Shown piece after piece: positions 489 through 22,162 of a stretch of 41,384 nt of DNA. A program made the position numbers and the translations under genes. How positions within the stretch are numbered: position 1 is the stretch's first letter; every line of letters starts with the position of its first letter. The notes under the pieces are model-generated. The model saw nothing but the letters and a program-made list of their open reading frames with translations. It did no database searches and was not told the DNA's origin. Origin of the DNA: Verrucomicrobiia bacterium (GTDB lineage: Bacteria > Verrucomicrobiota > Verrucomicrobiia > Limisphaerales > DSYF01). The DNA is taken from contig DASTWL010000024.1 in the NCBI GenBank assembly GCA_035765895.1, positions 1 through 41,384 of the forward strand, given 5' to 3'.

Positions 489-1622
489 ATGAGTTCACCG
501 CTCGAAATCATCGCCCTGACGCGGCAGCCCCGGGATGTCCGCCGTTTTTTCAAGCTCGCCTACCGTATTTACGACGGCGACCCCCGCTGGTTCGCGCCGC
601 TGTTGATGGACATGCACAAGGTGTTCGCGGACGCCAATCCGCTGTTCACGCACGCCGAGATGCAGTTGTGGGTGGCCCGGCGCGACGGCCGCGACGTGGG
701 GCGCATTGCCGGCGTGATTGACCGGAACCACAACGCGTTTCACCAGGAGCGAACCGCCTTTTTCGGCTTCTTCGAATGCGTGGACGACGCGGCCGCGAGC
801 GCGAAACTGTTCGAGGCGGTGGCGGCGTGGGCGAAGCAGAAGGGCATGGACCGTTTGCTCGGCCCGATGAACCCGACGACCAACGACGAGTGCGGGCTGC
901 TGGTGGACGGCTTCGAGACGCCGCCGGTGTTCATGATGACCTACAATCCGCGCTACTACGTGAAGCTGCTCGAAGGCGCCGGGTTCCGCCGCGCGAAGGA
1001 TCTGCTCGCCTTCGAGTTTGCGGTGGCGGGCAGTCCGCAGGAGCGGCTGAAGCGGTTTCAGGAGAAGTTCCGCAAACGCGAACCCGATCTGCGAATCGTG
1101 CCGCTGGCGAAAAAGACGTTGAAGGAGCAGCTCGTCAAGGTGAAGGCGGTTTACAATCAGGCGTGGGAAAAGAACTGGGGCTTCGTGCCGATGACCGACG
1201 CCGAAATCGATTTCATGGCGGAACGGCTCAAGCCCCTGCTCACCGACGGCCTGGCGTTCCTGGCCGAAACACCGCAGGAACCGGTCGGCTTCATGCTGGC
1301 CATGCCGGATTTCAACGAGGCCTTCCTGCCGTTGCGCGGCCGGCTGCTTTCGCCGGGACTGCTGCGGGCCGTGCCCTACCTGCTCGGCTGGAAGGCGCCG
1401 CGATACGTGCGGTGCGTAACGCTCGGGGTCACAGCGAAGGCCCGCGGCCGGGGCATCGAAGCGGCCATGCTGGCGGAAGGCGTCTTCACGTCGCTGCGTC
1501 TGGGCATCCAACGCTGCGAAGCCTCGTGGATCCTGGAGGACAATGTGCCGGTGATCCGGATGATCGAGCTGTTTGGCGGCAAGGTTTACAAGACTTACCG
1601 CATCTACGAACGCCCGGCCTGA
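489..1622 (+). CDS. GNAT-like acyltransferase, candidate bacterial ceramide synthase
   Basis: A 377-residue protein. The N-terminal half reads like the large GNAT-type family with 'YDGDPRWFAPL', 'NPLFTHAE', 'VGRIAGVIDRNHN', 'GFFECVDD', 'GPMNPTTNDECGLLVDGF' and 'MMTYNPRYY'. The C-terminal part (residues about 280-370) has the acetyl-CoA-fold ending with 'LGVTAKARGRGIEAAM'. I recall this family as the one containing the bacterial acyl-CoA-dependent ceramide synthase (bCerS) of Caulobacter. Placement tail-to-tail with a serine palmitoyltransferase-like operon (8-base gap) supports N-acylation of a sphingoid base. The family match is from memory of sequence pattern; substrate is inferred. A plain N-acetyltransferase of unknown substrate is the alternative. 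Confidence 0.7.
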   Translation: MSSPLEIIALTRQPRDVRRFFKLAYRIYDGDPRWFAPLLMDMHKVFADANPLFTHAEMQLWVARRDGRDVGRIAGVIDRNHNAFHQERTAFFGFFECVDDAAASAKLFEAVAAWAKQKGMDRLLGPMNPTTNDECGLLVDGFETPPVFMMTYNPRYYVKLLEGAGFRRAKDLLAFEFAVAGSPQERLKRFQEKFRKREPDLRIVPLAKKTLKEQLVKVKAVYNQAWEKNWGFVPMTDAEIDFMAERLKPLLTDGLAFLAETPQEPVGFMLAMPDFNEAFLPLRGRLLSPGLLRAVPYLLGWKAPRYVRCVTLGVTAKARGRGIEAAMLAEGVFTSLRLGIQRCEASWILEDNVPVIRMIELFGGKVYKTYRIYERPA

Positions 1623-1629
1623 CCGGCGG

Positions 1630-2607
1630 TCAGGGTGGCGATTCTTCCGAAGCCACGCCCAACGACGGTTGGGAAGCCACCTTGTCCGGGGCCGCCGGCG
1701 CCCCGGCAAAACGGGCATACAGGCGGTTGGCCAGGGGCAGCAGCAACGCGGTCGTCAAGGCGCCGGCCAGCACGTCCACTGCGTAGTGATAGCGGCAATA
1801 CACCGTTGAGCCGCACAGCAACACCGCCATGACGAGGTGAATCCAGCGGATGCGCCGCAGATACAGGAAGGAAAAATAGACCGTGACCAGCGCGATGGCG
1901 ACGTGGCTGCTCGGAAACGCAGCCCCCGGCGCTTCAAACTCGCGGTAAATCAGCGCCATGATTTTGTAAAAGAGGCCCGCCTGCACACTTTCGGGGAAGA
2001 CCCAGGCCGCTTCGGGCGGCGCGTTGGCCGGCGGATCGGACGACACGATGTCGCTGTAGGCAATGCGCGGGCCGATGACCGGCAGGAAAATGTAAATCAG
2101 GTAGCACGCGTAAAACACGAACGACACGACGGAGATGTAGTGGTAAAACTGGCGGCGGTTCCGGAGAAACAACGCCAGGCCGACGCCGACAATCATCACG
2201 TAGTAGGAAAAATAGGCGATGTAGAACACCTCGCTCACCCACAACGACGGAAAGGTCTGCATGAACCGGACGCTCGGCTCGAACCCGAACAGCAGCCGGT
2301 CCAGATGAATGAAGTGCCCATCCAGATAGCCCGTGTGCAGCATCTGATTGAGCAGGCCGGTTTCACGGTAAAATCCCGTGTAGAGCAGCACCGGATAGAA
2401 GTGGCGCAGGAAGTCGAGCACCCGGTTGGCCGGCCGGGCCGCGCTGGCCCTGATCAACCCGTGAATCAGCGCCAGGCATCCGACATGGGCCGCACACAAC
2501 CAGCCCCACCCCGGCACGGCCGTGCCGTGCAAAATCAGGACGATGAGCGCCACCAGGGCGATGTAACCCTGCGTCGCGTAGTCAATAAACGTGTAATGCT
2601 TCGTCAT
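1630..2607 (-). CDS. PAP2/AUR1-type membrane phosphotransferase or phosphatase
   Basis: A 325-residue polytopic membrane protein with about six hydrophobic segments. Near the middle it has 'LPVIGPR', then 'FPSSHVA' (PAP2 motif 2, residues about 230-236) and 'CRYHYAVDVLAG' (motif 3 with His and Asp). The G-P, PSSH and HYxxD triad is the lipid-phosphate phosphatase signature. The spacing and the 'FLPVIGPR' motif resemble the AUR1/inositol phosphorylceramide synthase branch (PAP2_3). It is the last gene of the operon, starting 4 bases after the reductase stop. In this setting it may add or remove a phospho-headgroup on ceramide. A general undecaprenyl- or phosphatidate phosphatase role cannot be excluded. 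The C-terminal 35 residues are hydrophilic and cytosolic-looking. Confidence 0.75.
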   Translation of the reverse strand: MTKHYTFIDYATQGYIALVALIVLILHGTAVPGWGWLCAAHVGCLALIHGLIRASAARPANRVLDFLRHFYPVLLYTGFYRETGLLNQMLHTGYLDGHFIHLDRLLFGFEPSVRFMQTFPSLWVSEVFYIAYFSYYVMIVGVGLALFLRNRRQFYHYISVVSFVFYACYLIYIFLPVIGPRIAYSDIVSSDPPANAPPEAAWVFPESVQAGLFYKIMALIYREFEAPGAAFPSSHVAIALVTVYFSFLYLRRIRWIHLVMAVLLCGSTVYCRYHYAVDVLAGALTTALLLPLANRLYARFAGAPAAPDKVASQPSLGVASEESPP

Positions 2608-2610
2608 GCG

Positions 2611-3594
2611 TCAGAGCCAGCCATGCTCCCGATACCAACGCAGCGTGTCCACCACGCCGTCGCGCAAGGGCGTGGCACATTCGAGATCCAGTTCCGCCTT
2701 CAGCCGGGCCACGTCACACACCCAGCCGGGCGCGTTCAGCTCGGCGAACTTCTGCGCGTTCAACACGCTGGGCCGCCGGGTGCGCCGCGCCCGCCAGTCC
2801 GCCCACTGACACGCCAGCCACAGCACCACCCGCGGCAGCGGCAGCGGAATCGTCCAGGTTCCCAGTTCGGTCGCCATCCGCCGGGCCAGTTCCGCGGCCG
2901 TCACCACTTCCGGTGAACCGACAAAAAAGACCTTCCGGCGCGCGCGCGGTTCAATCAAAACGGCGACAATGACCCGCGCCAGGTCGGCCACGTGCACCAG
3001 GCTTAAAAACTGCCGGCCGCCGCCGAACTGCGGGCGGAGATGCGCGTTGACCGCCTTGAACAGCCGGAGAAATTCACGATCGCGCGGCCCATACACCGCC
3101 GGCGGGCGCAGGATCACCCAGTCCGTCGTGCAGTGGGTCATGACCTCCTGCTCCGCCGCGAGTTTGCTGCGGCCATAATCGGAAACCGGCCGGGGGGGCT
3201 GGTTTTCCCGCGCCGGTTCGTCCGGCGTGTGCGGCCCGGCCACGGCCAGGCTGGAAACGTGCACGAATCGTTGGATGCGCGGGCCGCAACGGTTGACGGC
3301 CTCCACGAGCTGGCGGGTGCCCTGCTGGTTGGCCGCGAAGAATCCCGCGGCATCCAGGGCCTTGGTCGCGCCGGCGCAATGAACCACATGCGTCACGCCG
3401 GCGAGCGCCGCCGCGAGGGCTTCCGGCTGGTCCATGCCGCCCGTCCGGACTTCAACCCGGGAAAGCTGGTTGGCGATGAACTGGCGGTCGCTGGCTGCGC
3501 GGAGCAAAACCACCGTGGGAATGCCCTGCGCCAGGAGCTGGTCCAGCACGTGGCTGCCCACGAAACCGTTGCCGCCGGTGAGCAGGACTTTCAT
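2611..3594 (-). CDS. NAD(P)-dependent epimerase/reductase, candidate 3-ketosphinganine reductase
   Basis: A 327-residue extended short-chain dehydrogenase. The dinucleotide-binding loop is 'TGGNGFVGSHV' at residues 6-16, followed by 'VVHCAGATKA' and 'FVHVSSLAVAGP'. The catalytic pair is 'YGRSK' (Tyr and Lys). 'LRPPAVYGPRD' is the usual substrate-side loop. Extended SDRs of this kind (CerR) reduce 3-ketosphinganine in bacterial ceramide synthesis. Its place between the serine palmitoyltransferase-like gene (17-base gap) and the AUR1-like gene makes that the best guess. Sugar epimerase activity is possible from the fold alone. The ATG is well defined by the start of the Rossmann fold. Confidence 0.75.
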   Translation of the reverse strand: MKVLLTGGNGFVGSHVLDQLLAQGIPTVVLLRAASDRQFIANQLSRVEVRTGGMDQPEALAAALAGVTHVVHCAGATKALDAAGFFAANQQGTRQLVEAVNRCGPRIQRFVHVSSLAVAGPHTPDEPARENQPPRPVSDYGRSKLAAEQEVMTHCTTDWVILRPPAVYGPRDREFLRLFKAVNAHLRPQFGGGRQFLSLVHVADLARVIVAVLIEPRARRKVFFVGSPEVVTAAELARRMATELGTWTIPLPLPRVVLWLACQWADWRARRTRRPSVLNAQKFAELNAPGWVCDVARLKAELDLECATPLRDGVVDTLRWYREHGWL

Positions 3595-3611
3595 GCCGGT
3601 GCGGGCCCCGG

Positions 3612-4928
3612 TCAGATGATGCCGAGCCGCTGGCCGACCTTCTGAAACTTTTCCAGGGCGCGGTCAATTTGCGCGAAGGTGTGCGTGGCCATGAGACTCA
3701 CACGCAGCAATTCCTGACCAACCGGAACGCCGGGCGAAACGACCGGATTCACAAACACGCCCTCTTCTTCGAGCCCCTTGCAGAACTGGAAGGTCTTGAG
3801 CATGTCGTGCACGTAAACGGGCAGGATCGGGGTTTCGGAGGCGCCCAGATGAAACCCCAGGGAAATCAGCCCCTGCTTCATGCGTTCGGTGTTTTTCCAC
3901 AGCTGGGCGATCCGGGCCGGCTCGTTGATCATGATCTTCAACGCCGCGAGGACCGCCGCCGCATTGGCCGGGCTCATGCTCGCGCTGAACACGAGGGTGC
4001 GCGAGTTGTGCTTGAGAAAATCAATTGTGGCCGCGTCGCTGGCAATGAACCCGCCGAGGCTCGCGAGGGATTTGCTGAACGTGCCCATGATGAGCTGCAC
4101 GTCGTCCTCCAAACCGAAGTGCGAGGCCGTGCCGGAACCGCATTGCCCGAGCACGCCGATGCCGTGGGCGTCATCCACCATGACGGCGGCGTTGTATCGC
4201 TTGGCCAGCTTGACCAGCTCGGGCAGCTTGATGATGTCGCCTTCCATGCTGAAGACGCCGTCCACGACGATCAGCTTGCCGGCCCCGTGCGGCAACTGGC
4301 GCAGGCGCCGTTCCAGCGCATTCATGTCATTATGGGCAAACCGGATGAATTCGCCCAGGGACAGCCGGCAGCCTTCCACCAGACTCGCGTGGTTGGCCTT
4401 GTCGGCCAGGATGTATTCGTCCTTGCCCACGATGGTGCTGACCACGCCGAGATTGACCTGAAAGCCGGTGCTGTAGAGGAGCACGGCCTCCTTTTTCATC
4501 AGCCGGGCCAGTTCGGTCTCAAGCTCGATGTGCAGATCGAGCGTGCCGTTCAGAAACCGGGAGCCGGCGCAACCGCTGCCATACTTGCGCACTGCGGCTT
4601 CGGTGGCTTCCTTGATGCGCGGGTCATTCGTCAGGCCCAGATAACTGTTCGAGCCCATCATGAGCACCTTCTGGCCATTCATCGTGACCTCGGTGTCCTG
4701 CGCGGAGGAAATCGTCCGGAAATAGGGATACAACCCGAGTGCCCGCACCTGGTCGGCGCTGTGGTAGTTCCGCACCTTGCTGAACAACGGCAAACCGGCG
4801 GACTCCGCCTCCGGATGGGTTGCGAGATGGCCATTACCCCCCAAGGCTTTGGCTGCGGGTGCTGGCACCGGATTTTGGGGCGTTCTGGCCGCAGACGCGA
4901 CGGTCTGCGATTGCTTCTGAAAACTCAT
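3612..4928 (-). CDS. spt: Alpha-oxoamine synthase, probable serine palmitoyltransferase
   Basis: A 438-residue PLP enzyme of the alpha-oxoamine synthase family. After a Pro/Ala-rich extension of about 50 residues come '[14 protein letters not shown]', '[14 protein letters not shown]', '[11 protein letters not shown]', '[11 protein letters not shown]' and '[12 protein letters not shown]'. The Schiff-base lysine is in '[13 protein letters not shown]', where serine palmitoyltransferases carry TFSKS and KBL/BioF usually carry a different loop. The reaction would be serine plus acyl-CoA or acyl-ACP giving 3-ketosphinganine. It is the first gene of the minus-strand operon with reductase and AUR1-like enzyme. 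No dedicated acyl carrier protein gene is seen nearby. Glycine C-acetyltransferase is the main alternative, disfavoured by the neighbours. Confidence 0.8.
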
Positions 4929-5290: not shown

Positions 5291-5587
5291 ATGTTTATGC
5301 GTGCTGAATCTCCGACCAACGAACGCGGCACGGGGCCGCGTTGCGATCTGTGTCCGCTGAACCGGGTGCAAGCCGGCGTTGCGGTGCGCATCCGGCAACT
5401 GTGCGCCACGCCCGAAATTCAGACCCGCCTCCGTGAACTGGGTCTGTGCGAGGACCAAATCATCCGCCTCGTCACCAACCGCACGAGCTTCATCTGCCAG
5501 GTCTGCAACTCCCGTTTCGCGCTCAGCGAGCAGCTCGCCGCGCTCATTCTGGTTGAGCCGATGCAACCAGCGCCGGTTCGCGGTTGA
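5291..5587 (+). CDS. FeoA-domain protein
   Basis: A 98-residue protein with an SH3-like FeoA domain from about residue 22: 'CPLNRVQAGVAVRIRQL', then 'TRLRELGLCEDQIIRLV' and 'FICQVCNSRFALSEQLAALILVEP'. FeoA is the small cytosolic partner of the ferrous iron permease FeoB. No feoB is present in the window, so this is a stand-alone FeoA, which may have a regulatory role instead. The Cys-rich start ('RCDLCPL') and internal 'CQVC' are unusual and might bind metal. The 3' end overlaps the convergent GltD-like gene by 44 bases. Iron supply would fit the neighbouring heme pathway, but that link is inference. Confidence 0.75.
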   Translation: MFMRAESPTNERGTGPRCDLCPLNRVQAGVAVRIRQLCATPEIQTRLRELGLCEDQIIRLVTNRTSFICQVCNSRFALSEQLAALILVEPMQPAPVRG

Positions 5588-7141: not shown

Positions 7142-8152
7142 TCAGCCCGCAAACGGCTTCACCATGTTTGCCAAGGCCGTGATCCAAAGCGGATGCTCAT
7201 TCAGGCAGGGAATCAGCGTGTAGCGCTCACCGCCGGCTTGCAGGAACGTTTCGCGGCCGCGCATGCCGATTTCCTCGATCGTCTCCAGGCAATCGCTCAC
7301 AAACGCGGGCGAAATGATGACCAGTTTTTTTACGCCCGCCTTGGGCAGGCGTTCCAGTTCGAAGTCCGTGAATGGTTTCAGCCATGGATCCTTGCCCAGG
7401 CGTGACTGGAAGGCGACGGACCATTTTTGCGCCGGCACCCGGCACTTTTCCGCCACCTGCTTCGCGGTCTGGAAGCATTGGGCGCGGTAACAAAACTCAT
7501 GCGCCGGGCCCGGCACCTCGCAGCAGTTCGGCACCGTGAGGCAATGGCATTTCGTCGGGTCCGACTTCTTGATCTGCCGCTCCGGCACGCCGTGAAAGCT
7601 GAACAGCAGGTGATCGAAGTCCGTTTGCAACGCCGGCGCGGAAACCGCCGCCAGTGCGGCGATGTAATCCGGCGCGGCATAATACGGCGGCTGCACCGTG
7701 AGCCGGATGTGCGGCGCGTGCCGGGCGATGTTTTCCCGCACCCAGACCACGGCCGTTTCGTAGCTCGACATGGCGTAGTGCGGGAACAATGGAATCAACA
7801 ACAGCTCGGTGATCCCCTGCCCGGCCAGTTTCTTGACCGCGTCCGGCACGCCCGGGTTCTGGTAACGCATCGCCAGTTCAACCGGCACGGAGACGCGCTG
7901 TTGCAGGAGGGCCTGCACGTGACGGCTGATGACAATGAGCGGCGAACCTTCCGGCGTCCAAACGCTCTGATAGGCGTGCGCGGATTCCTTGGGCCGGTTG
8001 AGGAGAATCATCCCCACGATGAACCGGCGCAGCGGCCACGCGACGTCAATCACGCGCCCGTCCATCAGGAATTCGTTCAGGTAACGGCGCACGTCCGGCA
8101 CGGACGGCGAATCGGGCGACCCCAGGTTGACCAGGAGAACGGCTTTGCTCAT
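7142..8152 (-). CDS. hemH: Ferrochelatase
   Basis: A 336-residue protein of normal ferrochelatase length. It starts 'AVLLVNLGSPDSP' and carries 'LIPLFPHYAMSSYET', the catalytic-His motif 'LLFSFHGVPERQI', 'VAFQSRLGKDPWLKP' and 'ISPAFVSDCLETIEEIG' with the conserved acidic ladder. It inserts ferrous iron into protoporphyrin IX, the last step of protoheme synthesis. Extra cysteines after the His motif ('KCHCLTVPNCC') may bind a metal or cluster, as in some bacterial ferrochelatases; this is not proven. It is downstream of hemG by about 94 bases on the same strand and is the end of the heme run. The coproporphyrin-dependent variant is unlikely because a protoporphyrinogen oxidase-type gene sits next door. 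Confidence 0.95.
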   Translation of the reverse strand: MSKAVLLVNLGSPDSPSVPDVRRYLNEFLMDGRVIDVAWPLRRFIVGMILLNRPKESAHAYQSVWTPEGSPLIVISRHVQALLQQRVSVPVELAMRYQNPGVPDAVKKLAGQGITELLLIPLFPHYAMSSYETAVVWVRENIARHAPHIRLTVQPPYYAAPDYIAALAAVSAPALQTDFDHLLFSFHGVPERQIKKSDPTKCHCLTVPNCCEVPGPAHEFCYRAQCFQTAKQVAEKCRVPAQKWSVAFQSRLGKDPWLKPFTDFELERLPKAGVKKLVIISPAFVSDCLETIEEIGMRGRETFLQAGGERYTLIPCLNEHPLWITALANMVKPFAG

Positions 8153-8246
8153 GCGGCTAAGGGCAGTCGTTGCATCGTTAAATCGGGGCCACGTTACCCC
8201 GGCGGCGGTGCCAGGTCACGTGGTAACGCGGCCACGCCAGATCACT

Positions 8247-9656
8247 TCAAAGATTCATCGTGCGGGCGATGCGTTCGACTGCGTTCACCCCGGACACAAT
8301 CGAATCGCCCAGCGAAATGCCGCCGCGGTAATGGCCGGCCAGGAAGAAACCCGGCGCCTGCGCCTCGATTTCCGTCATTCGCGCGCGGTATTTGCCGTAG
8401 CCGAGATTGTATTGCGGAATGGCCTTGGGCCAAAACACGGTGTGCTGGAATGTCGGCTCGCCGTGCACGCCGAGCAACACGCGCAAATCGGCCTGCACCA
8501 GCTCATACAGCTTTTCCGCCGGCAGCGACGCCAGTTCCGGATAACGCTCACCGCCGATGTAGTTGGTCAATGTGAGATGTCCGGCCGGCGCGCGGTTCGG
8601 AAACAAGGCGGACGAGAAGATCGTGCCGAGGATTTTGAAGCCTTCCACCCGGGGAATCAACATGCCGAAGCCGTTGCACGGATGCGCCACGTCCTCGCGC
8701 CGGAAGCCCAGCACCACGCTCGCCACAGGCGGATAGCGGATTTCGGAGAAGGCGGAGAGGTCGAGCCGACCGCTTGATTGGAGCGCCGAACCGGAGTTCG
8801 GCGCTCCGAGTTCAACGTGCAGTTCCGCCAGCCTGAACGCCGTGCCCGCATAAAGCACCGCGCTGTGCTCCGCCTGGCCCGCACCCGCGGCATTCTTGAA
8901 GTTCACCGTCCAGCCGTTGGCCGTCTGCTTGAGCTGCGTGACGCTCGTATTCAGTTTGACCGCGGCGCCGAGCAGCTCGCGCAGGGTGTCGGGCAACACC
9001 TGCAAGCCTTCGTCGAAGGAAAACTTCGGCGCGCGGTCCTTTGCGACTTCGCCGCGCTTCTTGCGTTCACGCGCCCCGAGGATCTGGCCCCTGATCATTG
9101 AGCCGTATTTCTCTTCGAGCGCGGCGAGCTTGGGAAACGCCTGCTGCACGGAAAGCTTTTCCGGATCGCCCGCGTAAATGCCCGCCACCAGCGCATCAAT
9201 CGCGTGGTCCAGAAACTCCGGACACAGCCGGCGCCGGACAAAATTGGCGATGCTCTCCTCCTGCCCGTCCCGCTTCACCGGCCGGAACGGCTCGCGCAGC
9301 ACGGCCCACTTGGCGCCGAGCGTGAACAGCGGCGTGGTGAAGAATCCCAGCGGCGAGCCCGGCATTTCGATGGGCCGGCGGTAGCGCACCACGTAACGCG
9401 CCTCCGCCTGCGGGTCCGGGTCCAGGCGCCGCGGCTGCAGCCCGGCGTCATTCACGAGCTGCGTGATCTTGGGGGACGTTTCGAGGATGGTGTTCGGCCC
9501 GAACTCGGCGAGATAGCCGTCCTTGCGCAGGCTCTGAATCGCCCCGCCCACCCGGCCCGTGGCTTCATAGACCGTGACCGGAATCCCGCGGCGCTGGAGA
9601 TAAAACCCCGCCGTGAGTCCGGTGATACCGCCGCCGATGATGGCTACGGGTTTCAT
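8247..9656 (-). CDS. hemG: Protoporphyrinogen oxidase, HemY-type FAD enzyme
   Basis: A 469-residue flavoprotein beginning with the FAD-binding motif 'VAIIGGGITGLTAGFYLQRRG' region (residues 4-24). It continues with 'VYEATGRVGGAIQSL' and ends with 'GFFLAGHYRGGISLGDSIVSGVNAVERI', the second FAD-contact motif of this family. It oxidises protoporphyrinogen IX to protoporphyrin IX. The start lies 7 bases after a duplicated hemN stop codon (see 9664-9730), which suggests hemN and hemG were once directly coupled. A perfect 12-bp inverted repeat lies inside the coding sequence (8780-8807). Coproporphyrinogen oxidase (Gram-positive HemY) is a close relative, but hemN and hemH context favours the protoporphyrin route. 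Confidence 0.93.
   Translation of the reverse strand: MKPVAIIGGGITGLTAGFYLQRRGIPVTVYEATGRVGGAIQSLRKDGYLAEFGPNTILETSPKITQLVNDAGLQPRRLDPDPQAEARYVVRYRRPIEMPGSPLGFFTTPLFTLGAKWAVLREPFRPVKRDGQEESIANFVRRRLCPEFLDHAIDALVAGIYAGDPEKLSVQQAFPKLAALEEKYGSMIRGQILGARERKKRGEVAKDRAPKFSFDEGLQVLPDTLRELLGAAVKLNTSVTQLKQTANGWTVNFKNAAGAGQAEHSAVLYAGTAFRLAELHVELGAPNSGSALQSSGRLDLSAFSEIRYPPVASVVLGFRREDVAHPCNGFGMLIPRVEGFKILGTIFSSALFPNRAPAGHLTLTNYIGGERYPELASLPAEKLYELVQADLRVLLGVHGEPTFQHTVFWPKAIPQYNLGYGKYRARMTEIEAQAPGFFLAGHYRGGISLGDSIVSGVNAVERIARTMNL
8780..8807. repeat. Perfect 12-bp inverted repeat inside hemG
   Basis: GGAGCGCCGAAC, then a 4-base loop CGGA, then GTTCGGCGCTCC: both arms match over all 12 bases. It codes in frame for part of a Gly/Ser/Ala-rich segment of HemG. 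The form resembles short palindromic elements that can insert into reading frames. Only one copy of this exact arm was noticed in the window. Confidence 0.85.
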
Positions 9657-9663
9657 GAAAAAT

Positions 9664-9730
9664 TAAATCGTCCGCGAAGGGCGCCGTTTGCCCACGGGGG
9701 CAAGCGTGTTGTCGAAGCCCATCGCGATGT
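9664..9730 (-). pseudogene. Duplicated 3' end of hemN (remnant)
   Basis: Read on the minus strand in the hemN frame, this segment encodes 'FDNTLAPVGKRRPSRTI' and a TAA stop. The C-terminus of the intact HemN is 'FDNTLAPVGERRHSRTI'. Aligned bases 9665-9730 against 10450-10515 show 7 mismatches in 66, several of them at third codon positions. The remnant stop is 7 bases before the hemG ATG, where an intact hemN would naturally have ended. It marks the far edge of the inserted toxin-antitoxin cassette. Confidence 0.85.
9665..9730. repeat. Direct repeat, left copy (hemN 3' end)
   Basis: Left member of an imperfect 66-bp direct repeat, 59 of 66 bases identical by hand alignment to 10450-10515. 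The offset between copies is 785 bases, and the intervening DNA is almost entirely the toxin-antitoxin pair. Confidence 0.85.
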
Positions 9731-9733
9731 GGT

Positions 9734-10063
9734 TCAGGCCGCGAGCAGTTCCGGATGACGTGCCGCGATCCGCAGCAACTTCAAGGCGGCACCGCTGGGT
9801 TCACGCTGGCCCGATTCCCAACTGATGGCGGTGGGCTTGGGCACGTTGAGCAGCGCCGCAAAGACGGCTTGGCTGACGCCCAGGCGTTTTCGCAACTCGG
9901 CGATTTCGCGGGGCTTGATGGACTTCTCGCGCGGCGGCAGGGCCAGCCGCGTGGTGCGCATCGTCAGGCGTTTACCGCCGCTGACGTGCTTGGCCACCCC
10001 CTCAAGACGCCGGATCAGTTCCTCAGCGTCGAATTCAATCTCATTTTTTGTTTTGCGCGGCAT
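9734..10063 (-). CDS. XRE-family antitoxin (HigA-like)
   Basis: A 109-residue protein. The C-terminal half is a helix-turn-helix: 'PREIAELRKRLGVSQAVFAALLNVPKPTAISWESGQREPSG' region, followed by 'ALKLLRIAARHPELL'. The N-terminal part is basic and acidic mixed, without known motif. It starts inside the end of the upstream RelE/HigB-type toxin gene, with a 23-base overlap. Toxin-first order is the HigBA arrangement. It should neutralise the toxin and repress the shared promoter. Because the toxin is frameshifted, the antitoxin may now be an orphan regulator. Its 3' end abuts the duplicated hemN tail. Confidence 0.85.
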   Translation of the reverse strand: MPRKTKNEIEFDAEELIRRLEGVAKHVSGGKRLTMRTTRLALPPREKSIKPREIAELRKRLGVSQAVFAALLNVPKPTAISWESGQREPSGAALKLLRIAARHPELLAA

Positions 10064-10392
10064 AAGCTTGTTCGATTTGTCGGGCCAGCAGGCGCAGACG
10101 GAACCGCTGGTCGGCCGACAGGTCTGACTGCCGGGATTTCGTGTAGAGAAACAACAGGATCACCTTCTCCACGCGTGGCAGGTGCAGATAAATCACCCGG
10201 GCGCCAGCCGATTTACCCCGCCCCGGCAACTTCATCCGCACCTTGCGGAGGCCCCCCCGAGTCTCGGATCACATCGCCCTTGTCTGGATTGTGAAGCAGT
10301 TCGAGTTGCAACGCCCGCAACGCTTCCTCGTTGGCGATCCGATGCAGGTCGCGCGTGAACTCCGGCACCTCCACAAACTCCAGCGCCTTCAT
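10041..10392 (-). pseudogene. RelE/HigB-family toxin, frameshifted
   Basis: Two frames together make one toxin of about 116 residues. The first begins at the ATG at 10392 ('MKALEFVEVPEFTRDLHRI') and runs to 'GDVIRDSGG'. The second continues 'LRKVRMKLPGRGKSAGARVIYL' region, then 'VEKVILLFLYTKSRQSDLS'. The join is at a run of seven C on the plus strand (10252-10258); removing one base restores a continuous frame. The complete protein would match RelE/ParE-superfamily ribosome-dependent or HigB-like RNases in length and order. The indel may be a real inactivation or a homopolymer sequencing error. It directly precedes and overlaps the XRE antitoxin. Confidence 0.8.
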
Positions 10393-10447
10393 ACGAGCGG
10401 ATTCTATACTACCATGTAACACACCGCAAGCCGGGAACGACAGGCGA

Positions 10448-11824
10448 TCAAATCGTCCGCGAATGCCGCCGTTCGCCGACGGGCGCGAGCGTGTTGTCGA
10501 AGCACATCGCGATGTTGCGGATGAACAGGCGGCCCGTCTCGGTGACGTCCAGGCCCGCGGCCGTGCGTTGCACCAGTCCATCCGCCTCGAAGGGCGCGAG
10601 CGCAGCCAGTTCCGGCGCGAAGTGCTCCGCGAAGTTGATGCCGAGCTTCCGGCCCATCGCGGCGAAGTCGAGCGAGAGATCGCACATCACCCGCATGATG
10701 GTTTCGCGGCGGATGTGGTCTTCCGGCGTCACGAAATACGCCTTGTGCAACGGCGCGCGGCCGCCATCCACCGCCGCCTGCCAGACCGGGAGTTCCTTCT
10801 CGTTCTGCCAGTAGGCGTCGGGAATCTGCGAGATGCTGGACATGCCGAAGGCGTAAATGTCCGTCCCCGCGCGCGTGCTGTAACCCTGGAAATTCCGCTG
10901 CAACTGCTTGTTCCGCTGCGCCACGGCGAGTTCGTCGTCCGGCTTCGCAAAATGGTCCATGCCGATGTAAACGTAGCGGTCATCCTCGGTCAGGCGCTCG
11001 ATGACGGTCTTGAGAATCTGCAGCTTCACGTCCGCAGTCGGCAGGACTTTTGCCTGCAAAATTTTCTGCGCCGGCTTGATCCACGGCACGTGCGCGTAGC
11101 TGAACACGGCCAAACGGTCGGGCTGCATCTGGAGCACCGTGTCGAGCGTGTGGTTGAACGACGCCACGGTCTGATGCGGCAGGCCGTAAATCAGGTCAAG
11201 ATTCACCGAGCGGAAGCCCAGTTCGCGCAGCCAGTCGAGCGCCTGCTGCGTCATGGCGACGGGCTGGATGCGGTGCACGGCCTCCTGCACCTGCGGGTTG
11301 AAATCCTGCACGCCCATCGAGGCGCGGTTGAAGCCAATCTCCGCCAGCGCCACCACGTGGTCCCGCGTCAGCCGGCGCGGATCCACCTCGACGCTGGCCT
11401 CGATGTCGGCGGCGAAATCGAAGTGCTGGTGGATGATTTCGCCGAGGCGGCGGATTTCGTCGGGCTTGAGGAACGTGGGCGAGCCGCCGCCGAAATGGAG
11501 TTGGACGGCCTTGCGCTGCCGGTTGAGGAGCGGCGCCATGAGCGCGACTTCGCGGCCGAGCGCCTCCACGTAGCCCATGCCGCGGCTGTGATCGAGCGTG
11601 ATGACCGTGGTGCAGCCACAGAACCAGCAGAGCGTTTCGCAGAACGGAATGTGAAAATAGAGCGACAGACCGCGTTCGGTCTCGTTGTTGGCCGAGATGC
11701 GGTCGCGCAGCGCCTCCCACGTCACGGCCTCCGTGAATTTGGTGGCGGGCGGATACGACGTGTAGCGCGGGCCGGGCTGGTTGTATTTCTCAACCAGGGC
11801 AAGATCAACTTTGAGCGTGCTCAT
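10448..11824 (-). CDS. hemN: Oxygen-independent coproporphyrinogen III oxidase
   Basis: A 458-residue radical SAM enzyme. The N-terminal 'YNQPGPRYTSYPP' is typical of true HemN. The cluster motif is 'CETLCWFCGC' (Cys-x3-Cys-x2-Cys, with the extra Cys of HemN). 'LHFGGGSPTFL', 'GVQDFNPQVQEAVHRIQP' and 'NLDLIYGLPHQT' follow, and the C-terminus has 'VTETGRLFIRNIAMCFDN'. It makes protoporphyrinogen IX from coproporphyrinogen III without O2. It lies 57 bases after hemE on the same strand. The last 66 bases are the right copy of the direct repeat, so the present C-terminus may have been brought by, or rebuilt after, the toxin-antitoxin insertion. Confidence 0.95.
   Translation of the reverse strand: MSTLKVDLALVEKYNQPGPRYTSYPPATKFTEAVTWEALRDRISANNETERGLSLYFHIPFCETLCWFCGCTTVITLDHSRGMGYVEALGREVALMAPLLNRQRKAVQLHFGGGSPTFLKPDEIRRLGEIIHQHFDFAADIEASVEVDPRRLTRDHVVALAEIGFNRASMGVQDFNPQVQEAVHRIQPVAMTQQALDWLRELGFRSVNLDLIYGLPHQTVASFNHTLDTVLQMQPDRLAVFSYAHVPWIKPAQKILQAKVLPTADVKLQILKTVIERLTEDDRYVYIGMDHFAKPDDELAVAQRNKQLQRNFQGYSTRAGTDIYAFGMSSISQIPDAYWQNEKELPVWQAAVDGGRAPLHKAYFVTPEDHIRRETIMRVMCDLSLDFAAMGRKLGINFAEHFAPELAALAPFEADGLVQRTAAGLDVTETGRLFIRNIAMCFDNTLAPVGERRHSRTI
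10450..10515. repeat. Direct repeat, right copy (3' end of intact hemN)
   Basis: Right member of the 66-bp imperfect direct repeat shared with 9665-9730. It forms the functional C-terminal codons of hemN. No inverted terminal repeats or transposase gene accompany the pair. Confidence 0.85.
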
Positions 11825-11881
11825 GCGAAACGACTTTAACCACGGACGGCGGCGGATGCACCCCGATTTGCGGCGCGAGGC

Positions 11882-12904
11882 TCAACCACCATGCACCGTG
11901 TCCACGACGGCCTGGATGCATTCCAGCTTCGACTCGGGGGTGACGCCGTGGCCAAGGTTGAAAATGTGGCCGGGCCGGCCCTTCAGGTCCGCCAAAATGC
12001 GCCGGGTTTCCGCGGCCGCGGCTTCGGGCGAGGTGCTGAGCAGGAACGGGTCGAGGTTGCCCTGCACGGCCACGTTCTTCGGCAGCCGCGCCGCCACGTC
12101 GGCGAGGCGCACGCCCCAATCCACGCCCAGCACATCCGCGCCGGTGCCCACCAGGTCGTCCCAGTTCCCGTGCGCCCCCTTGGAAAACACAATGACCGGC
12201 GTGTGGCCCTTGAGGCCGCTGATGATCTGCTGCATCCAACGCCCGGACGCTTCGGGAAAGGCGCTGGAACTCAGGCTGCCGCCGAGCGTGTCGAAGATTT
12301 GGATGGCATCCACGCCCGTATCAATCTGCATCTGCAAATAACGGGTGCAGGCTTCGGTGAGTTTTTCGCAGAGGCGGTTGAACAGCTTCGGTTCGCGGTA
12401 AAACATCGCCTTGGCGCCGGAAAATTCCTTCGCGCTGCCACCTTCGACCATGAAGTTGGCCAGCGTCCACGGCGAGCCCGCAAAGCCAAGCAACGCCGTC
12501 TTGGTGCCGAGCTGGGCGCGGATCAGCTTGAGCGCCTCGGCCACGTAGTGCAGCCGGTCCACCACGGCGTTCACGTCGAGCTTTTCCACGTCGGCCGCGG
12601 TGCGGACGGCGAAGTCCATGCCGATGCCGCCGGCTTCGCGAAACTGGTAGCCCTGGCCCAGGCCCTCGCAAACGACGAGGATGTCGCTGAACAGAATCGC
12701 CGCGTCGAAGCCGAAGCGGCGGATGGGTTGCAGCGTGACTTCGGCGGCGAGTTCGGGCGTCTGGACCAGTTGCAGGAACGTGAACTTCTCCTTCAACGTC
12801 CGGTATTCCGGCAGGGCGCGGCCGGCCTGGCGCATGAGCCACAGCGGCGGACGCGGGACCGGTTCACAACGAACGGCGGCGAGGAAGAGGTTTCGGCTGT
12901 TCAT
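11882..12904 (-). CDS. hemE: Uroporphyrinogen decarboxylase
   Basis: A 340-residue protein, the usual UroD length. It opens 'MNSRNLFLAAVRCEPVPRPP', followed by the active-site 'LWLMRQAGRALPEYR'. 'DAAILFSDILVVCEGLG' carries the catalytic Asp; 'LLGFAGSPWTLANFMVEGG' and the C-terminal 'IFNLGHGVTPES' are family signatures. It decarboxylates uroporphyrinogen III to coproporphyrinogen III. The frame is open upstream to 13060, but those 52 residues are not UroD-like, so the ATG at 12904 is preferred. It heads the heme run hemE-hemN-(TA)-hemG-hemH, all on the minus strand. Confidence 0.96.
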   Translation of the reverse strand: MNSRNLFLAAVRCEPVPRPPLWLMRQAGRALPEYRTLKEKFTFLQLVQTPELAAEVTLQPIRRFGFDAAILFSDILVVCEGLGQGYQFREAGGIGMDFAVRTAADVEKLDVNAVVDRLHYVAEALKLIRAQLGTKTALLGFAGSPWTLANFMVEGGSAKEFSGAKAMFYREPKLFNRLCEKLTEACTRYLQMQIDTGVDAIQIFDTLGGSLSSSAFPEASGRWMQQIISGLKGHTPVIVFSKGAHGNWDDLVGTGADVLGVDWGVRLADVAARLPKNVAVQGNLDPFLLSTSPEAAAAETRRILADLKGRPGHIFNLGHGVTPESKLECIQAVVDTVHGG

Positions 12905-13075
12905 GGTTTCGGCGGAGCCGGACCGCGGTTGATCAGACTGCCGACCCTGCGCGGAACTGCGCTCCGGGAGATTGCTTGTCGAATACATCACGTTTAACGC
13001 CAACCTGCGAGCTTCGCTACGACTTAGGCCACGCACGAAAACGTCGCGTTCACGTGTCATTCAGCATAAGGCCGA

Positions 13076-15620: not shown

Positions 15621-16481
15621 TTAGAACCGGAGCGAGGAGTTCACCCGGGAGCCGTGGACGGCCTCGTGACAGCCCGCGGTCCAGCACGTGCCCTGTTGCA
15701 AACGCACCGTGTGGTCGGAACCGCCAATCAAAACCCGGCCGCTCTGCACCTGTTGGAAATGGCACTTCAGGCACAGCGTCGAGTTCCGCTCCGTCAACAG
15801 CTTGGCGTTCACGCTGCCATGCGGAATGTGGCACGTCGTGCAGCCCTCGCGGGTGGCTTCGTGTTCAAACACAAACGGACCGCGCTGCGCCGGATGGCAT
15901 TGCAGGCAGTTTTCCTCGGAGGCCAGCAGGGCCGTGCTGCCGCCCACGTGCGCCGAGCCCTTGTGCGGCGGATGGCATTGCGTGCAGGACATGCGGCCCT
16001 CGGGCACGGGGTGATGACTCGGCAGGTTGAACTGGCCGCGCACGTCGGCGTGGCATTGGTAGCATACCGTCTCCGTGGCCCGGGCCTTGGTCAGCATGGG
16101 CTGGGCGCCCAGCCCTGCGGAACGCGGACGCCCGGAGGTGAAACTGAACGGCGGCTTCACTTCGCCGCCCGAATCCGAATGCAGGCTGGCCGGGCCGTGG
16201 CAGGATTCGCAGCCGACGTCCAGCGCGTTTTTGCCCTCGGCAATCAGCCGGTGGTGATCCGCCGTCTTGAAGTCGCGATAAATGTCGTCGTGGCACTGCT
16301 CGCATTCCTTCGAGCCGATGTATTTTGCGCCGGGCACTTCGGGCAGCACGACCGCCGCACGGTTGACCGTCCGGCACGAAATGGCCGCCACCACCAGCAC
16401 CAGGGCGCCGGCGGCGAGCAGCAGCCCGCGCCGCCGCGGCGTGATCCCGGATTTGAAGGGATTAAAGTTGCGCTTGCTCAT
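15621..16481 (-). CDS. MtrA/DmsE-like octaheme c-type cytochrome
   Basis: A 286-residue protein with an N-terminal hydrophobic segment (residues 19-35) ending in 'AAISC', which may be an anchor or a poor lipobox. There are seven CXXCH sites (Cys 60, 91, 140, 166, 192, 214, 237). An eighth site at Cys 266 has the wider CX4CH spacing ('CWTAGCH'). 'TVCYQCHADVRGQFNLPSHH' and 'MSCTQCHPPHKGS' match the DmsE/MtrA family, whose members usually carry ten hemes. It would be the periplasmic wire inside the barrel encoded by the next gene (20-base gap). Heme counts are read directly; conduit function is inferred from family and synteny. Confidence 0.85.
   Translation of the reverse strand: MSKRNFNPFKSGITPRRRGLLLAAGALVLVVAAISCRTVNRAAVVLPEVPGAKYIGSKECEQCHDDIYRDFKTADHHRLIAEGKNALDVGCESCHGPASLHSDSGGEVKPPFSFTSGRPRSAGLGAQPMLTKARATETVCYQCHADVRGQFNLPSHHPVPEGRMSCTQCHPPHKGSAHVGGSTALLASEENCLQCHPAQRGPFVFEHEATREGCTTCHIPHGSVNAKLLTERNSTLCLKCHFQQVQSGRVLIGGSDHTVRLQQGTCWTAGCHEAVHGSRVNSSLRF
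16098..16115. repeat. Perfect 18-base palindrome in octaheme gene
   Basis: GGGCTGGGCGCCCAGCCC reads the same on both strands. It codes for part of a segment between heme sites 2 and 3 that looks longer than in related DmsE proteins. It could be a small palindromic insertion or chance in GC-rich DNA. Confidence 0.6.
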
Positions 16482-16520
16482 GTCGTTTGCGGTTGGGGGT
16501 TACGTCGTGAATCCGCTGCG

Positions 16521-18128
16521 TCATTGCTTCAACTCGGCCTGCACCCAGTTCATCGCGGCATCGAGGAGGGTGATCGAATACGGCCCATTGTGAACACCGA
16601 AGCTGCCGTCGTGGTAGACGAGATAAAGATTGTAGCGCGCCTTCTGGATGTTGGCGGGAATCAGCTTTTGTTCGGTGCTGGTCGGTCCCGCCGGGCCGGC
16701 GGACAAGCCGCCCGGCGTCGAATATTCCCAGGCGAGCGCGCCATACTTCGACTGCAAGGCGGCGGGCGCCTTTGTCAGCGCCCACTGATCCAGCGCCGCC
16801 TTCACGTCCTGAATGCGGGTGCCGATGGTGGTCATCGTAAATTGCGCCAGCAATTCAGGGAACGGATGGCACTGCGCGCAGGCGTCATACGAATTCACCT
16901 GGAACGAATGGCCCGTCACCGCCGCGACCGTCTCCCCCTCGGCGGGGCGGGTTTGCATGTGGCAGCCGACGCATTGGTTGGTGATCAACAGCGCGTGCGC
17001 CGCCGGAAAGGCGTTGGTCGAGCCATCGGTCCGTTCGCCCACCGTGCCCAAGAGCATGTTGTATTGCGGCGAGTGATGCGGCGGCCGGCTGGAACTGCTC
17101 CACGTGGCGCCGCGATGGTTGTGGCATTGGGCACACACGTTGATGTTTGGGTTGTATTTGTTCGTGAAGACGTCCGACGTCGCCAGGAAGTAATCATTCG
17201 TCGAGGCGACGGGATAACGCAGCTGCGCCGGATTCGCGTTCGTTTGATGCGGGTCGTGACAGACCACGCACGTCAGGCCCACATTCGCGTCGTTGGTGAC
17301 GGTCAGCGGGTTTTCTCCCTTGATCAAGGCCAGCCGCGCCGACCCCGAGTGACACCGGCCGCAAGTGTTGACGCGGCCGGGATCGCTCATGTCCTCGACC
17401 ACCTGGAAGTGTCCGCTCGTGCTCCATTCGTCGAACGTCGGATGATGCGCGCCCGTATGGCAGCCGCCGCACACCTGCGCCGCCAGTTCCACGCGCGGCC
17501 GGAAGGCGAGGTCGTCCGGATTCGCGGCGTGATTGCCGGCCGGGCCATGACAGTTTTCACATTGCACGCCGGCCAGGTAAGGCGTTGCAGTTTGATTCTG
17601 GTATCCGCTCGGCAGGCCGTAACCGACCGTGTGGCACACGAGGCAGCTGGGATTTTGATCCTGGCGCACGGCCTGCAGCGTCTCCAGCGCGTGCGCGTGC
17701 CGGGTGTTCATTTCCGAATCGTGAATGTTCCCGTGGCACTCCGCGCAGGCGGCGGCCCCGGCGTATTGCGGCGCCGGACCCGACACGCGGAATAATGCGC
17801 TGTTGGTCAGGTTCGCAATGGTGACCATCCGGTTGAGATTCGCCGCGCCGACCTGCAGCCAGGCGGAACTCTGCAACGCCGGCTTTTGGTAAACCTTGTA
17901 GTAACCCGAAGGCCCATCCCAGGTAAGCGTGACGCCGTTGGTGTCCTTGGTGATGCCGGTCATCACCGGCAGACCGGGCATGCCGCCGGGCTGGGTGATG
18001 CTCAAATGCTGCGCCTCTTGAGCAAACGCAGTCAGTGCCACGCCGCCCATCGCCACCGCCAAGGCAACGGCGCCTGCCGCGTTGACCCATCTGGCCTTGA
18101 TGCCGTTCATAAGTTGCAAGCCGGTCAT
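16521..18128 (-). CDS. Secreted nonaheme c-type cytochrome A
   Basis: About 535 residues from the ATG at 18128; a second ATG at 18110 is nearly as good. A signal peptide ends near 'ALTAFAQEA'. Residues about 40-120 form a non-heme beta domain ('VTLTWDGPSGYYKVYQKP' to 'ALFRVSG'). Nine CXXCH sites follow, at about Cys 128, 162, 190, 220, 256, 287, 332, 386 and 417. One is 'CVVCHDPHQTNANPAQLR'. The C-terminus has 'ARYNLYLVYHDGSFGVHNGPY'. It is the first gene of the operon with the octaheme cytochrome (39-base gap) and barrel. It is probably periplasmic or surface-exposed as a terminal electron donor or acceptor. The frame is open to 18317, but that extension does not look coding. Confidence 0.85.
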   Translation of the reverse strand: MTGLQLMNGIKARWVNAAGAVALAVAMGGVALTAFAQEAQHLSITQPGGMPGLPVMTGITKDTNGVTLTWDGPSGYYKVYQKPALQSSAWLQVGAANLNRMVTIANLTNSALFRVSGPAPQYAGAAACAECHGNIHDSEMNTRHAHALETLQAVRQDQNPSCLVCHTVGYGLPSGYQNQTATPYLAGVQCENCHGPAGNHAANPDDLAFRPRVELAAQVCGGCHTGAHHPTFDEWSTSGHFQVVEDMSDPGRVNTCGRCHSGSARLALIKGENPLTVTNDANVGLTCVVCHDPHQTNANPAQLRYPVASTNDYFLATSDVFTNKYNPNINVCAQCHNHRGATWSSSSRPPHHSPQYNMLLGTVGERTDGSTNAFPAAHALLITNQCVGCHMQTRPAEGETVAAVTGHSFQVNSYDACAQCHPFPELLAQFTMTTIGTRIQDVKAALDQWALTKAPAALQSKYGALAWEYSTPGGLSAGPAGPTSTEQKLIPANIQKARYNLYLVYHDGSFGVHNGPYSITLLDAAMNWVQAELKQ

Positions 18129-18459
18129 CCTGCAATGGTTGTCGTCCGGGCGCGGGGGAGAACGATGACCCAGCCAGCCCCCGCCGCCCACACCGGTCCG
18201 AAAGTCGAATCGGTTGCCCCAGTGCGCCTTCAGACTAATCGGCCGGCCAGAATTGACTTCACGGATATTGGCGGATGCTCTCCCTGCGTTGGCTATGACT
18301 GAACAAAATCCCCGCATTGAAGGCCGTCAAGCAGTTTGATGAACCACCCGGCGGCAGGCACACGCAAAGGGGGGATGCGCCCCGCAGACAAACAGGGACG
18401 TCTTTGGCTCGAATGAGGCGTGCGTGATAACGCGCGGCGCGGTGTAAGCAGAATTGAAG

Positions 18460-18474
18460 GCGGTCAATGACCGC
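18460..18474. promoter_or_regulatory. Inverted repeat in leader of Cys-rich protein gene
   Basis: GCGGTCA, one base, TGACCGC: a perfect 7-bp inverted repeat 30 bases before the ATG at 18505. It could be an operator or a leader hairpin. No partner copy was seen. Confidence 0.4.
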
Positions 18475-18504
18475 AAAACAAAACCCACAAAGAAAGAGGA
18501 TAAC

Positions 18505-18867
18505 ATGAAAGCCATGAATTCAATTCCGCGTTATGTGCTGTTGACGTTTGCGGTGGCGGCCCTGACCGCCGCCCCGTCCGTGCTGGCCCAGCCCAAGGGG
18601 GCCGAGCTGCTCATCACCCGCAAGGCGCCGGTGAGTGAAGCCAACAGCGCACCCAAGGCCTGCCCCAAATGCCAGGACAAGGCCATGCGCATGACTGCGC
18701 CCCAGTTCAAGGGCGCCGGCACCGCACCCGCGCAAAAGGTGATGGTCCATCAATGCCCGACCTGCGCAAACCAAAGCGTGACCCAGGGACACGGCAAACT
18801 GGCGGTTACGGCAGTGAAGCATACCTGCACGGCGAGTGATTGCACGTGCTGCGGCACGTCCTCGTAA
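18505..18867 (+). CDS. Small secreted cysteine-rich protein
   Basis: A 120-residue protein of unknown family. The ATG at 18505 is preceded by AGAGGA (18495-18500), one of the clearest ribosome-binding sites in the window, and an in-frame upstream start was rejected for that reason. A signal peptide runs to about 'PSVLAQP'. The mature part has 'CPKCQDKAM', 'CPTCANQS' and a tail with 'CTASDCTCC'. The CXXC pairs suggest a bound metal or disulfides; there are no CXXCH heme sites. It is transcribed away from the porin-cytochrome operon, alone on the plus strand. A periplasmic metal-binding or redox role is only a guess. Confidence 0.75.
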   Translation: MKAMNSIPRYVLLTFAVAALTAAPSVLAQPKGAELLITRKAPVSEANSAPKACPKCQDKAMRMTAPQFKGAGTAPAQKVMVHQCPTCANQSVTQGHGKLAVTAVKHTCTASDCTCCGTSS

Positions 18868-19076
18868 GACGGCCGCCTTGCCATGGAGCGGACGGCGAAT
18901 CGGCTGTCCGCTCCAGTTTGTTTGAATCAGGGGCAACTGTGCGGCTCGCCTCCGGTTCCTCAACTGGAAAGCCTGCTCCGGCGGCGGGGGCATTTTTGAG
19001 AGCATCCCGTGTTCGGCCTTCTTGGGCTTGTCCCGATCGCGATTCAAAAACAGGCTTCCGTCACTGTCTTGGTTTC

Positions 19077-19499
19077 TTACGAGGTGCGCCCGGATTCGTC
19101 CCTTTCAACTAGACCTTCATGTCTGCGGTCTGTGAGAAGCACAATGATGGCGGCTATGGCACCAAGGGCGGCAGCTATCTTTTCTATGCCATGCGTAAAC
19201 CCGAGCAACACGAGTGGCACAGTAACAAGGATCCCGATTACCAACCCAAGCTGCTGCCATAACTTTTTCGGACTCGAACCACGCCGGTAGGTGGCGCAAC
19301 TGCAAACCAACGATACCAAAGCATACGTGCCCAAGAGCCACCAAATCACAAACACAATGTTTCCAGGGTGGCCTCCCATAAATACCGCCGGCAACGCGAA
19401 CAGCAATACTCCAAGGCTCAGCAAAGCGTGCAACACAATCATTGGCAGGCAGCCAAATACGAGCAACAAAACCCGGCATAGCTTGATTCCGGCATCCAT
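19077..19499 (-). CDS. Small membrane protein of unknown function
   Basis: About 140 residues with four predicted hydrophobic segments: 'VLLLVFGCLPMIVLHALLSL', 'VIWWLLGTYALVSLVCSC', 'LGLVIGILVTVPLVLLGF' and 'IAAALGAIAAIIVLL'. No family motif was recognised. An in-frame start at 19520 is also possible. Codon use is less GC-rich than in the neighbouring cytochrome genes, which may indicate a more recent arrival. No operon partner is evident. Confidence 0.55.
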   Translation of the reverse strand: MDAGIKLCRVLLLVFGCLPMIVLHALLSLGVLLFALPAVFMGGHPGNIVFVIWWLLGTYALVSLVCSCATYRRGSSPKKLWQQLGLVIGILVTVPLVLLGFTHGIEKIAAALGAIAAIIVLLTDRRHEGLVERDESGRTS

Positions 19500-19773
19500 A
19501 TGCGAGCTGCTAGTTAGCATGGCTTTTGCTGAGAACGAAAAGGGCCAGCTCTCCGGCGTAAACGGGAGTTGCGCCGAATGAGCGCCGCCGAGCCACCAGT
19601 TGTGGGGCTCACGCCCCGGACAACCCAGGAACGAAGCGCAAATGCCATGCAGGCCTATCTAATCCGGCAGACCCCGGCCGTCCCGCGCCAAGCGCCGGGC
19701 CCGGCCCATCCCGCTCCCCATCAACGCAACCGCCCGTTTAACTCATGCGCCCCCACGGAAGACGGGCAGCCTT

Positions 19774-20061: not shown

Positions 20062-20134
20062 GGCGTGAGGGGATGCCACCTGAACAGCAAGGCTTTCACT
20101 GAAAGCTCCCGCCGTGTCTGCGCCCCGGCCCGGT

Positions 20135-22094: not shown

Positions 22095-22162
22095 GCCGGG
22101 AGAATTACCCGCGCCTGCCCATCCGCACAGCCAAAACTTCGACCGTCAAAGCCGGCGCCGAG

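Follow-up and report, generated by a model that had tools for sequence, protein, structure and literature searches.

An AUR1-like PAP2 protein in a conserved bacterial ceramide locus as a probable headgroup phosphotransferase

What does an AUR1-like PAP2 protein do in a bacterial gene cluster that otherwise resembles a ceramide pathway? The question is raised by a contig of 41,384 nucleotides (DASTWL010000024.1, assembly GCA_035765895.1) from a Verrucomicrobiia bacterium of the Limisphaerales, which we call the window; Verrucomicrobia is a group of mostly uncultured bacteria. Four complete open reading frames (ORFs) are packed within positions 489–4928, and they encode a GNAT-fold N-acyltransferase, the PAP2 protein, a short-chain dehydrogenase/reductase (SDR) and serine palmitoyltransferase (SPT). 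Positions refer to the whole window (Table 1). A preliminary description had taken these genes for a ceramide locus ending in an AUR1-like enzyme that could attach a phospho-headgroup such as inositol phosphate. The four ORFs are confirmed, each with its expected Pfam or NCBIfam family, and the locus, which is genuine and conserved, is most readily explained as an operon for ceramide that also encodes a headgroup enzyme of the AUR1 type. The PAP2 protein itself is probably a ceramide headgroup phosphotransferase, whatever its donor.

This reading follows from AUR1 being the top match by sequence profile, Foldseek and VIA-align Z score, and from a motif-3 Thr that is found in every family member aligned. 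The PAP2 protein matches the Pfam family PAP2_3 with 73 bits (cut-off 27), and an AlphaFold2 model made with 70 sequences has a predicted local distance difference test score (pLDDT) of 92.3 and a predicted template-modelling score (pTM) of 0.89. When Foldseek was run with this model, the sole match below 1e-3 was fungal AUR1 with ceramide (9vj4, 2.0e-4), followed by AUR1-Kei1 (9ivc, 1.5e-3) and then by B. subtilis PgpB (0.072). VIA-align superposed the model on AUR1 with Z scores of 19.1 over 260 residues and 18.4 over 268, and the aligned model residues, 4–299, take in the N-terminal helices of the AUR1 fold as well as its PAP2 core. The next structure reached a Z of 14.5 over 174 residues, and glucose-6-phosphatase, LpxE, PgpB and acid phosphatases stayed at or below 14.5 over ~160–190 residues (14.3 for LpxE, at most 13.3 for PgpB), with LPP1 at 10.0 and the SMS-related protein (SMSr, 8ijq) at 11.8 over 199 residues; this ranking speaks only for the families included in the list. 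SMSr, PgpB, LpxE and LPP1 have the PAP2 core in common with the window protein, but at lower Z and over shorter alignments than AUR1. Sequence profiles also placed AUR1 first (2.3e-6) and PgpB next (1.1e-4).

The catalytic motifs also side with AUR1. PAP2-type lipid phosphatases carry the canonical motifs KX6RP and SRX5HX3D. In an alignment of the window protein with those of 69 of 80 public loci (70 sequences), KX6RP, taken in this form, occurs in no sequence, and a Thr replaces the motif-3 Arg in all 70. H235, T268, H274 and D278 are invariant, and T268 aligns both with the Arg of SRVYLGVH in PgpB and with the Thr of STMYLTHH in AUR1 (the stretch reads SRVYLGVHFVTD in B. subtilis PgpB and STMYLTHHYFVD in AUR1). 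The His-His-Asp set with Thr in place of the motif-3 Arg is the pattern that AUR1, the catalytic subunit of inositol phosphorylceramide (IPC) synthase, itself shows. Ahead of the PAP2 core, conservation extends to R68 (68/70), Y71 (69/70), P72 (68/70), E82 (62/70) and D96 (70/70). The other two PAP2_3 genes of the window genome have the phosphatase-type SR (WSRIYFSAHHFSD and YSRVYNGVHYPGD). The PSSH and HYxxD motifs of the preliminary description are present as FPSSH (residues 231–235) and HYAVD (residues 274–278), its AUR1-like layout is borne out by fold and motif 3, and a grouping with PAP2 phosphatases, which it had named as the outcome that would tell against it, did not appear. The 70-sequence alignment left out L074, L076, L102, L103, L107, L116, L117, L133 and L146 (length/stop filter), L140 and L141 (by hand) and a paralogue in L118; a second alignment, of the window and 23 of 30 loci fetched from the same order, left out L054 (in-frame stop), L038 (partial) and L039–L043 (distant).

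Table 1 Genes and conserved PAP2 segments of the ceramide locus, with conservation among 70 aligned sequences
Feature	Position	Strand	Match or conservation
GNAT-fold N-acyltransferase, homologue of YghO / bacterial ceramide synthase	489..1622	+	Pfam Acetyltransf_1
AUR1-like PAP2 protein, putative ceramide headgroup phosphotransferase, 325 aa	1630..2607	-	PAP2_3
SDR/epimerase-type reductase, putative 3-ketosphinganine or keto-ceramide reductase (CerR-like)	2611..3594	-	Pfam Epimerase
Serine palmitoyltransferase (SPT), presumed first gene of the operon	3612..4928	-	8guh match, NF047600
PAP2 motif FPSSH, residues 231-235	1903..1917	-	P232, S233, H235 70/70; S234 69/70
PAP2 motif STVYCRYHYAVD, residues 267-278	1774..1809	-	T268, Y270, H274, D278 70/70
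PAP2 N-terminal region, residues 68-105, ahead of PAP2 core	2293..2406	-	conserved R68, Y71, P72, E82, D96

The other three genes resemble known ceramide proteins, in support of the verrucomicrobial ceramide locus first proposed. The window SPT, presumed to be a serine palmitoyltransferase with predicted condensation activity, aligns over residues 49–433 with a solved enzyme of this class (8guh, E 2.4e-150) and shares with it a 12-residue stretch around the pyridoxal-phosphate lysine. Its best model is that of the Bacteroidetes-type SPT (NF047600, 612.9 bits; next model 406), it matches Aminotran_1_2 with 205.8 bits, and it is 38% identical to E. coli BL21 spt over 372 aligned columns. The GNAT protein (Acetyltransf_1, 24.5 bits, cut-off 20.7) is homologous over its full length to BL21 YghO, a bacterial ceramide synthase (bCerS), with 32% identity over 368 aa (E 5e-67) in a single comparison; we infer from its position that ECD_02850 of BL21 is yghO. 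The SDR (Epimerase, 126.6 bits) is 33% identical over 208 aa to the reductase beside BL21 spt and adjoins the SPT gene, so that both homology and linkage fit CerR. Because PMC9386255 treats the BL21 cluster as a set of dihydroceramide genes, homology of the GNAT protein and SDR to its products supports a ceramide pathway. In Caulobacter and in E. coli BL21, SPT-CerR-bCerS clusters encode the same three ceramide steps, whereas the window locus adds the PAP2 gene, and genes for acyl carrier protein (ACP) and acyl-AMP ligase were not seen there.

On the minus strand the order is SPT, SDR, PAP2, and the two intergenic gaps, taken in that direction, measure 17 and 3 bp. These genes presumably form an operon, onto which the GNAT gene converges from the opposite strand, pointing toward PAP2 and ending 7 bp from it. 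Scans for promoters and terminators gave counts close to those of shuffled sequence (2 versus 0.9 and 7 versus 6.7).

Is this arrangement peculiar to one genome? In a sample of 116 genomes of the order, the window's own included, close orthologues of PAP2 (near full-length, E 3.3e-72 or better), SPT (E 1e-80) and GNAT (E 1e-20) occur in 25, 24 and 31 genomes, respectively. Both PAP2 and SPT occur in 21 genomes, whereas four have only PAP2 of the two and three have only SPT; SPT is thus present in 21/25 genomes with PAP2 and 3/91 without it (Fisher p 3.5e-16, a guide only, as the genomes are related). One genome with SPT and no PAP2 call (G055) retains 28 aligned N-terminal PAP2 residues directly after SDR, at a contig edge, and another (G061, locus L195) has the order SPT-GNAT-SDR and, in the fourth place, a DUF763 gene. 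A scan of public species genomes yielded 521 candidate loci, and the counts that follow describe the best 80. SPT, SDR and PAP2 recur together in 41 of these, in several phyla, 22 times with GNAT and 19 times without, and with such recurrence the gene set is no chance effect. The remaining loci have GNAT and PAP2 (20), SDR, GNAT and PAP2 (4), SDR and PAP2 (3) or PAP2 alone (12); when the count is restricted to the 57 loci whose sequence extends at least 3.5 kb upstream of PAP2 and 1.5 kb downstream of it, the six classes in this order number 20, 14, 17, 0, 0 and 6. The four-gene set that the preliminary description had singled out in a verrucomicrobial genome is present there, but it is not confined to Verrucomicrobia.

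A convergent GNAT gene adjoins PAP2 in 33/80 public loci, and where GNAT is adjacent in verrucomicrobial loci it is convergent. By comparison, seven public loci have SPT, GNAT, SDR and PAP2 in this order on one strand; they are labelled Planctomycetota (3), Lentisphaerae, Desulfobacteraceae, Deltaproteobacteria and uncultured bacterium, bin labels that are possibly wrong. The median SDR–PAP2 gap across 48 loci is 19 bp, with start codons chosen by script. We also considered hidden partner genes beside the locus (myo-inositol-phosphate synthase (MIPS), phosphatidylinositol (PI) synthase, a kinase or ACP) and rejected them for want of a widely recurring neighbour family: apart from the four genes, no family appears in more than 3 of 31 order loci (the window and 30 fetched) or in over 8 of the 80 public loci, where those found are scattered, as judged with a home-made ORF picker that may miss genes and that also gave the gene neighbours of MIPS and of the extra alpha-oxoamine synthases described below. 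In L118 (8899–11585), a full SPT-GNAT-SDR-PAP2 operon is followed by another SDR gene (25%) and another PAP2 gene (26%, ATVYGRYHYVSD motif), perhaps a duplicated headgroup step.

From gene content, conservation, fold and residues, a chemical route can be proposed, each step of which, like the headgroup, is a prediction. SPT would join L-serine and an acyl thioester by condensation, giving 3-ketosphinganine; reduction of the ketone by the SDR and addition of a second acyl chain by the YghO-type GNAT protein, in either order, would then give dihydroceramide. In the AUR1-like PAP2 protein the attacking residue would be a catalytic His, for which H274, with D278 to hold it, is the likeliest candidate; its attack on the phosphate of a donor phospholipid would form a phospho-headgroup enzyme intermediate, from which ceramide would accept the headgroup, leaving diacylglycerol. 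The donor would most likely be a phospholipid that the organism makes, with phosphatidylethanolamine (PE) placed first because Psd, the phosphatidylserine decarboxylase, is encoded in 24/25 order genomes with PAP2. Phosphoethanolamine is thus our tentative choice of headgroup, and gene presence points to phosphoglycerol from phosphatidylglycerol (PG) as the second.

The headgroup suggested in the preliminary description was inositol phosphate, and here the AUR1 architecture of the fourth gene is supported but inositol phosphate is not. If the PAP2 protein were an IPC synthase, its donor would be PI, for which the cell would import the inositol, and ceramide would receive the inositol phosphate. 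AUR1, its nearest relative by both fold and sequence, does favor this idea, as does BT_1522 of the BT1522-1526 operon, a Bacteroides AUR1 homologue that PMC8791184 and PMC9246714 describe as required for inositol phosphoceramide and as transferring inositol phosphate to dihydroceramide; moreover, the lineage of a distant family member (L144) has MIPS beside a BT1523-like PI-phosphate synthase, and L144 weakly matches the phosphoinositol dihydroceramide synthase model NF052609 (40.6 bits of 480). However, the window PAP2 protein has no match to that model (cut-off 480 bits) even at E 10, and it sits inside a ceramide operon in a genome (96% complete) in which MIPS was not found, whereas BT_1522 has MIPS and PI-phosphate synthase as its gene neighbours; model and gene setting set the two apart. 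MIPS was likewise found in 0/37 order genomes, 25 with PAP2 and 12 without, by a search that detected the Bacteroides control. The window genome encodes four CDP-alcohol transferases, of which two are PgsA-like (one just below cut-off), one is PssA and one is unassigned, and the PI-phosphate synthase model fits none of them. With MIPS absent, no PI-phosphate synthase fit and no NF052609 match, an inositol phosphate headgroup is unlikely in the window organism, and we regard an IPC synthase that relies on imported inositol as improbable, although uptake of inositol may still allow PI as donor. The protein also differs from fungal AUR1, with which it shares the whole-length fold (9vj4, 9vj3, 9ivc), PS-x-H and HY-x-x-D motifs, the motif-3 Thr and similar AFPS and STxY...HY.VD..AG stretches, in that identity is 13–15% and it belongs to a bacterial operon, in a genome with no recognised PI synthesis genes. 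Elsewhere the donor may differ between lineages, as MIPS is found in 6/20 genomes with family members outside the order (two weak partial matches) and in 9/9 genomes of one small phylum. Two loci of that phylum have MIPS beside a BT1523-like PI-phosphate synthase (280 bits, cut-off 350, in L205; judged by eye in L206), and inositol lipids are likely there. A lipid phosphatase, for example one acting on ceramide-1-phosphate, phosphatidylglycerol phosphate (PGP) or undecaprenyl pyrophosphate, could instead sit in the operon by chance, and membership of the PAP2 superfamily and the weaker PgpB and LpxE matches are what one would then expect. Yet the replacement of the motif-3 Arg by Thr and the absence of KX6RP hold in all 70 sequences, and AUR1 ranks above every phosphatase by sequence and by a fold that includes the N-terminal helices, making this the least probable of the alternatives; undecaprenyl-pyrophosphate and PGP phosphatases in particular were rejected because of motif 3, motif 1 and the fold.

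A further possibility is a separate PAP2–GNAT module whose substrate is either a different lipid bearing an amine or sphingoid bases that the cell scavenges, with SPT and SDR gained in some lineages or lost in others. Much of what weighs against a ceramide phosphotransferase supplied by its own operon belongs here. Four order genomes (G028, G038, G058 and G084, 93–97% complete) have PAP2 and GNAT with no close SPT, and G057 carries SPT and SDR with no PAP2 after them. Among 16 distinct PAP2 genomes (from 19 handles chosen because SPT is not beside PAP2 or GNAT; two handles are the same genome and two have GNAT without PAP2), 13 have no alpha-oxoamine synthase more than 40% identical to the window SPT, and the same 13 have no SDR at E 1e-30; G126–G128 have an SPT-like protein of 48–53% elsewhere in the genome, again without SDR. 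A second SPT in SPT-less genomes was considered and rejected: the extra alpha-oxoamine synthases, by sequence reading, are mostly BioF, since in eight fetched loci the gene adjoins a family read as BioA, although three have glycosyltransferase-like genes around them. Of the 25 order genomes with PAP2, 24 have GNAT and 21 have SPT; PAP2 has GNAT as its sole companion among the other three in 20/80 public loci, and SPT-less loci fall at several places in the PAP2 tree. With 13 genomes lacking both a close SPT and the SDR, the substrate of PAP2 and GNAT may be something else than ceramide made by the cell itself; either loss combined with sphingoid-base salvage or a different acceptor would explain the pattern. 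Other points against our reading are smaller: the AUR1 sequence-profile match spans only the C-terminal 66 residues, the SPT score of 612.9 bits is just below the curated NF047600 cut-off of 640, and the case for PE is one of gene presence alone. Nevertheless, SPT and SDR together are PAP2's commonest company (41/80 loci, several phyla), and the SPT-less loci lie within or beside SPT-bearing groups, as expected from loss, in a quick tree with very long outgroup branches that was used only for the spread of these loci. An independent PAP2–GNAT module is doubtful, and a phosphotransferase acting on ceramide remains our preferred reading.

More broadly, the ceramide phosphotransferase proposed here could, in a tentative extension, belong to an unnamed AUR1-type subfamily that is spread over the ceramide operons of several phyla and transfers phosphoethanolamine or phosphoglycerol, from PE or PG, in place of inositol phosphate, with SPT-less carriers remodeling scavenged bases. 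PMC11334938 reports SPT-like proteins among Verrucomicrobiota from the Black Sea (22 genomes) and co-localisation of SPT, CerR and bCerS, and counts of word beginnings in its main text give no occurrence of AUR1, PAP2 or inositol. In the titles and abstract openings of open-licence PMC literature, we found no description of an AUR1-like gene in such a ceramide locus. A ceramide kinase has been described for Caulobacter (PMC10331486). Bacterial enzymes for non-inositol headgroups are poorly known, in that PMC8791184 reports no match for an ethanolamine phosphoceramide synthase in Bacteroides, though the lipid is abundant there. The conserved, self-contained four-gene set offers one clean candidate headgroup gene; if the reading is right, headgroup chemistry would be added to the sphingolipid potential that PMC11334938 derives for many phyla from SPT, CerR and bCerS, and the AUR1 fold would gain an enzyme with a new donor.

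Several further features were noted. PAP2, mostly with convergent GNAT, occurs without nearby SPT or SDR in L116, L117, L125, L128, L134–L138, L140, L142 and L147, where, as in G028, G038, G058 and G084, PAP2 and GNAT act as a unit apart from SPT and SDR. The genomes of L128, L135 and L134 also encode (at L188, L189 and L190, respectively) an SPT-like synthase 39–40% identical to the window SPT; the genes around it resemble those for glycosyltransferases and for large membrane proteins, and in these Opitutus-like genomes it may belong to a further pathway for sphingoids or glycolipids. The model scan of the extra alpha-oxoamine synthases covered that of L188 only. In the window, a small ORF with a FeoA domain (5291–5587) lies on the strand opposite to the SPT gene and upstream of it, and a 1155-aa ORF (35161–38628) has only a weak DUF5696 match. 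Adjoining haem synthesis genes for ferrochelatase, protoporphyrinogen oxidase, HemN and HemE occupy 7142–13060, and near them, at 15621–25574, are several multihaem cytochrome proteins, some MtrC/MtrF-like, for which extracellular electron transfer is a possible role.

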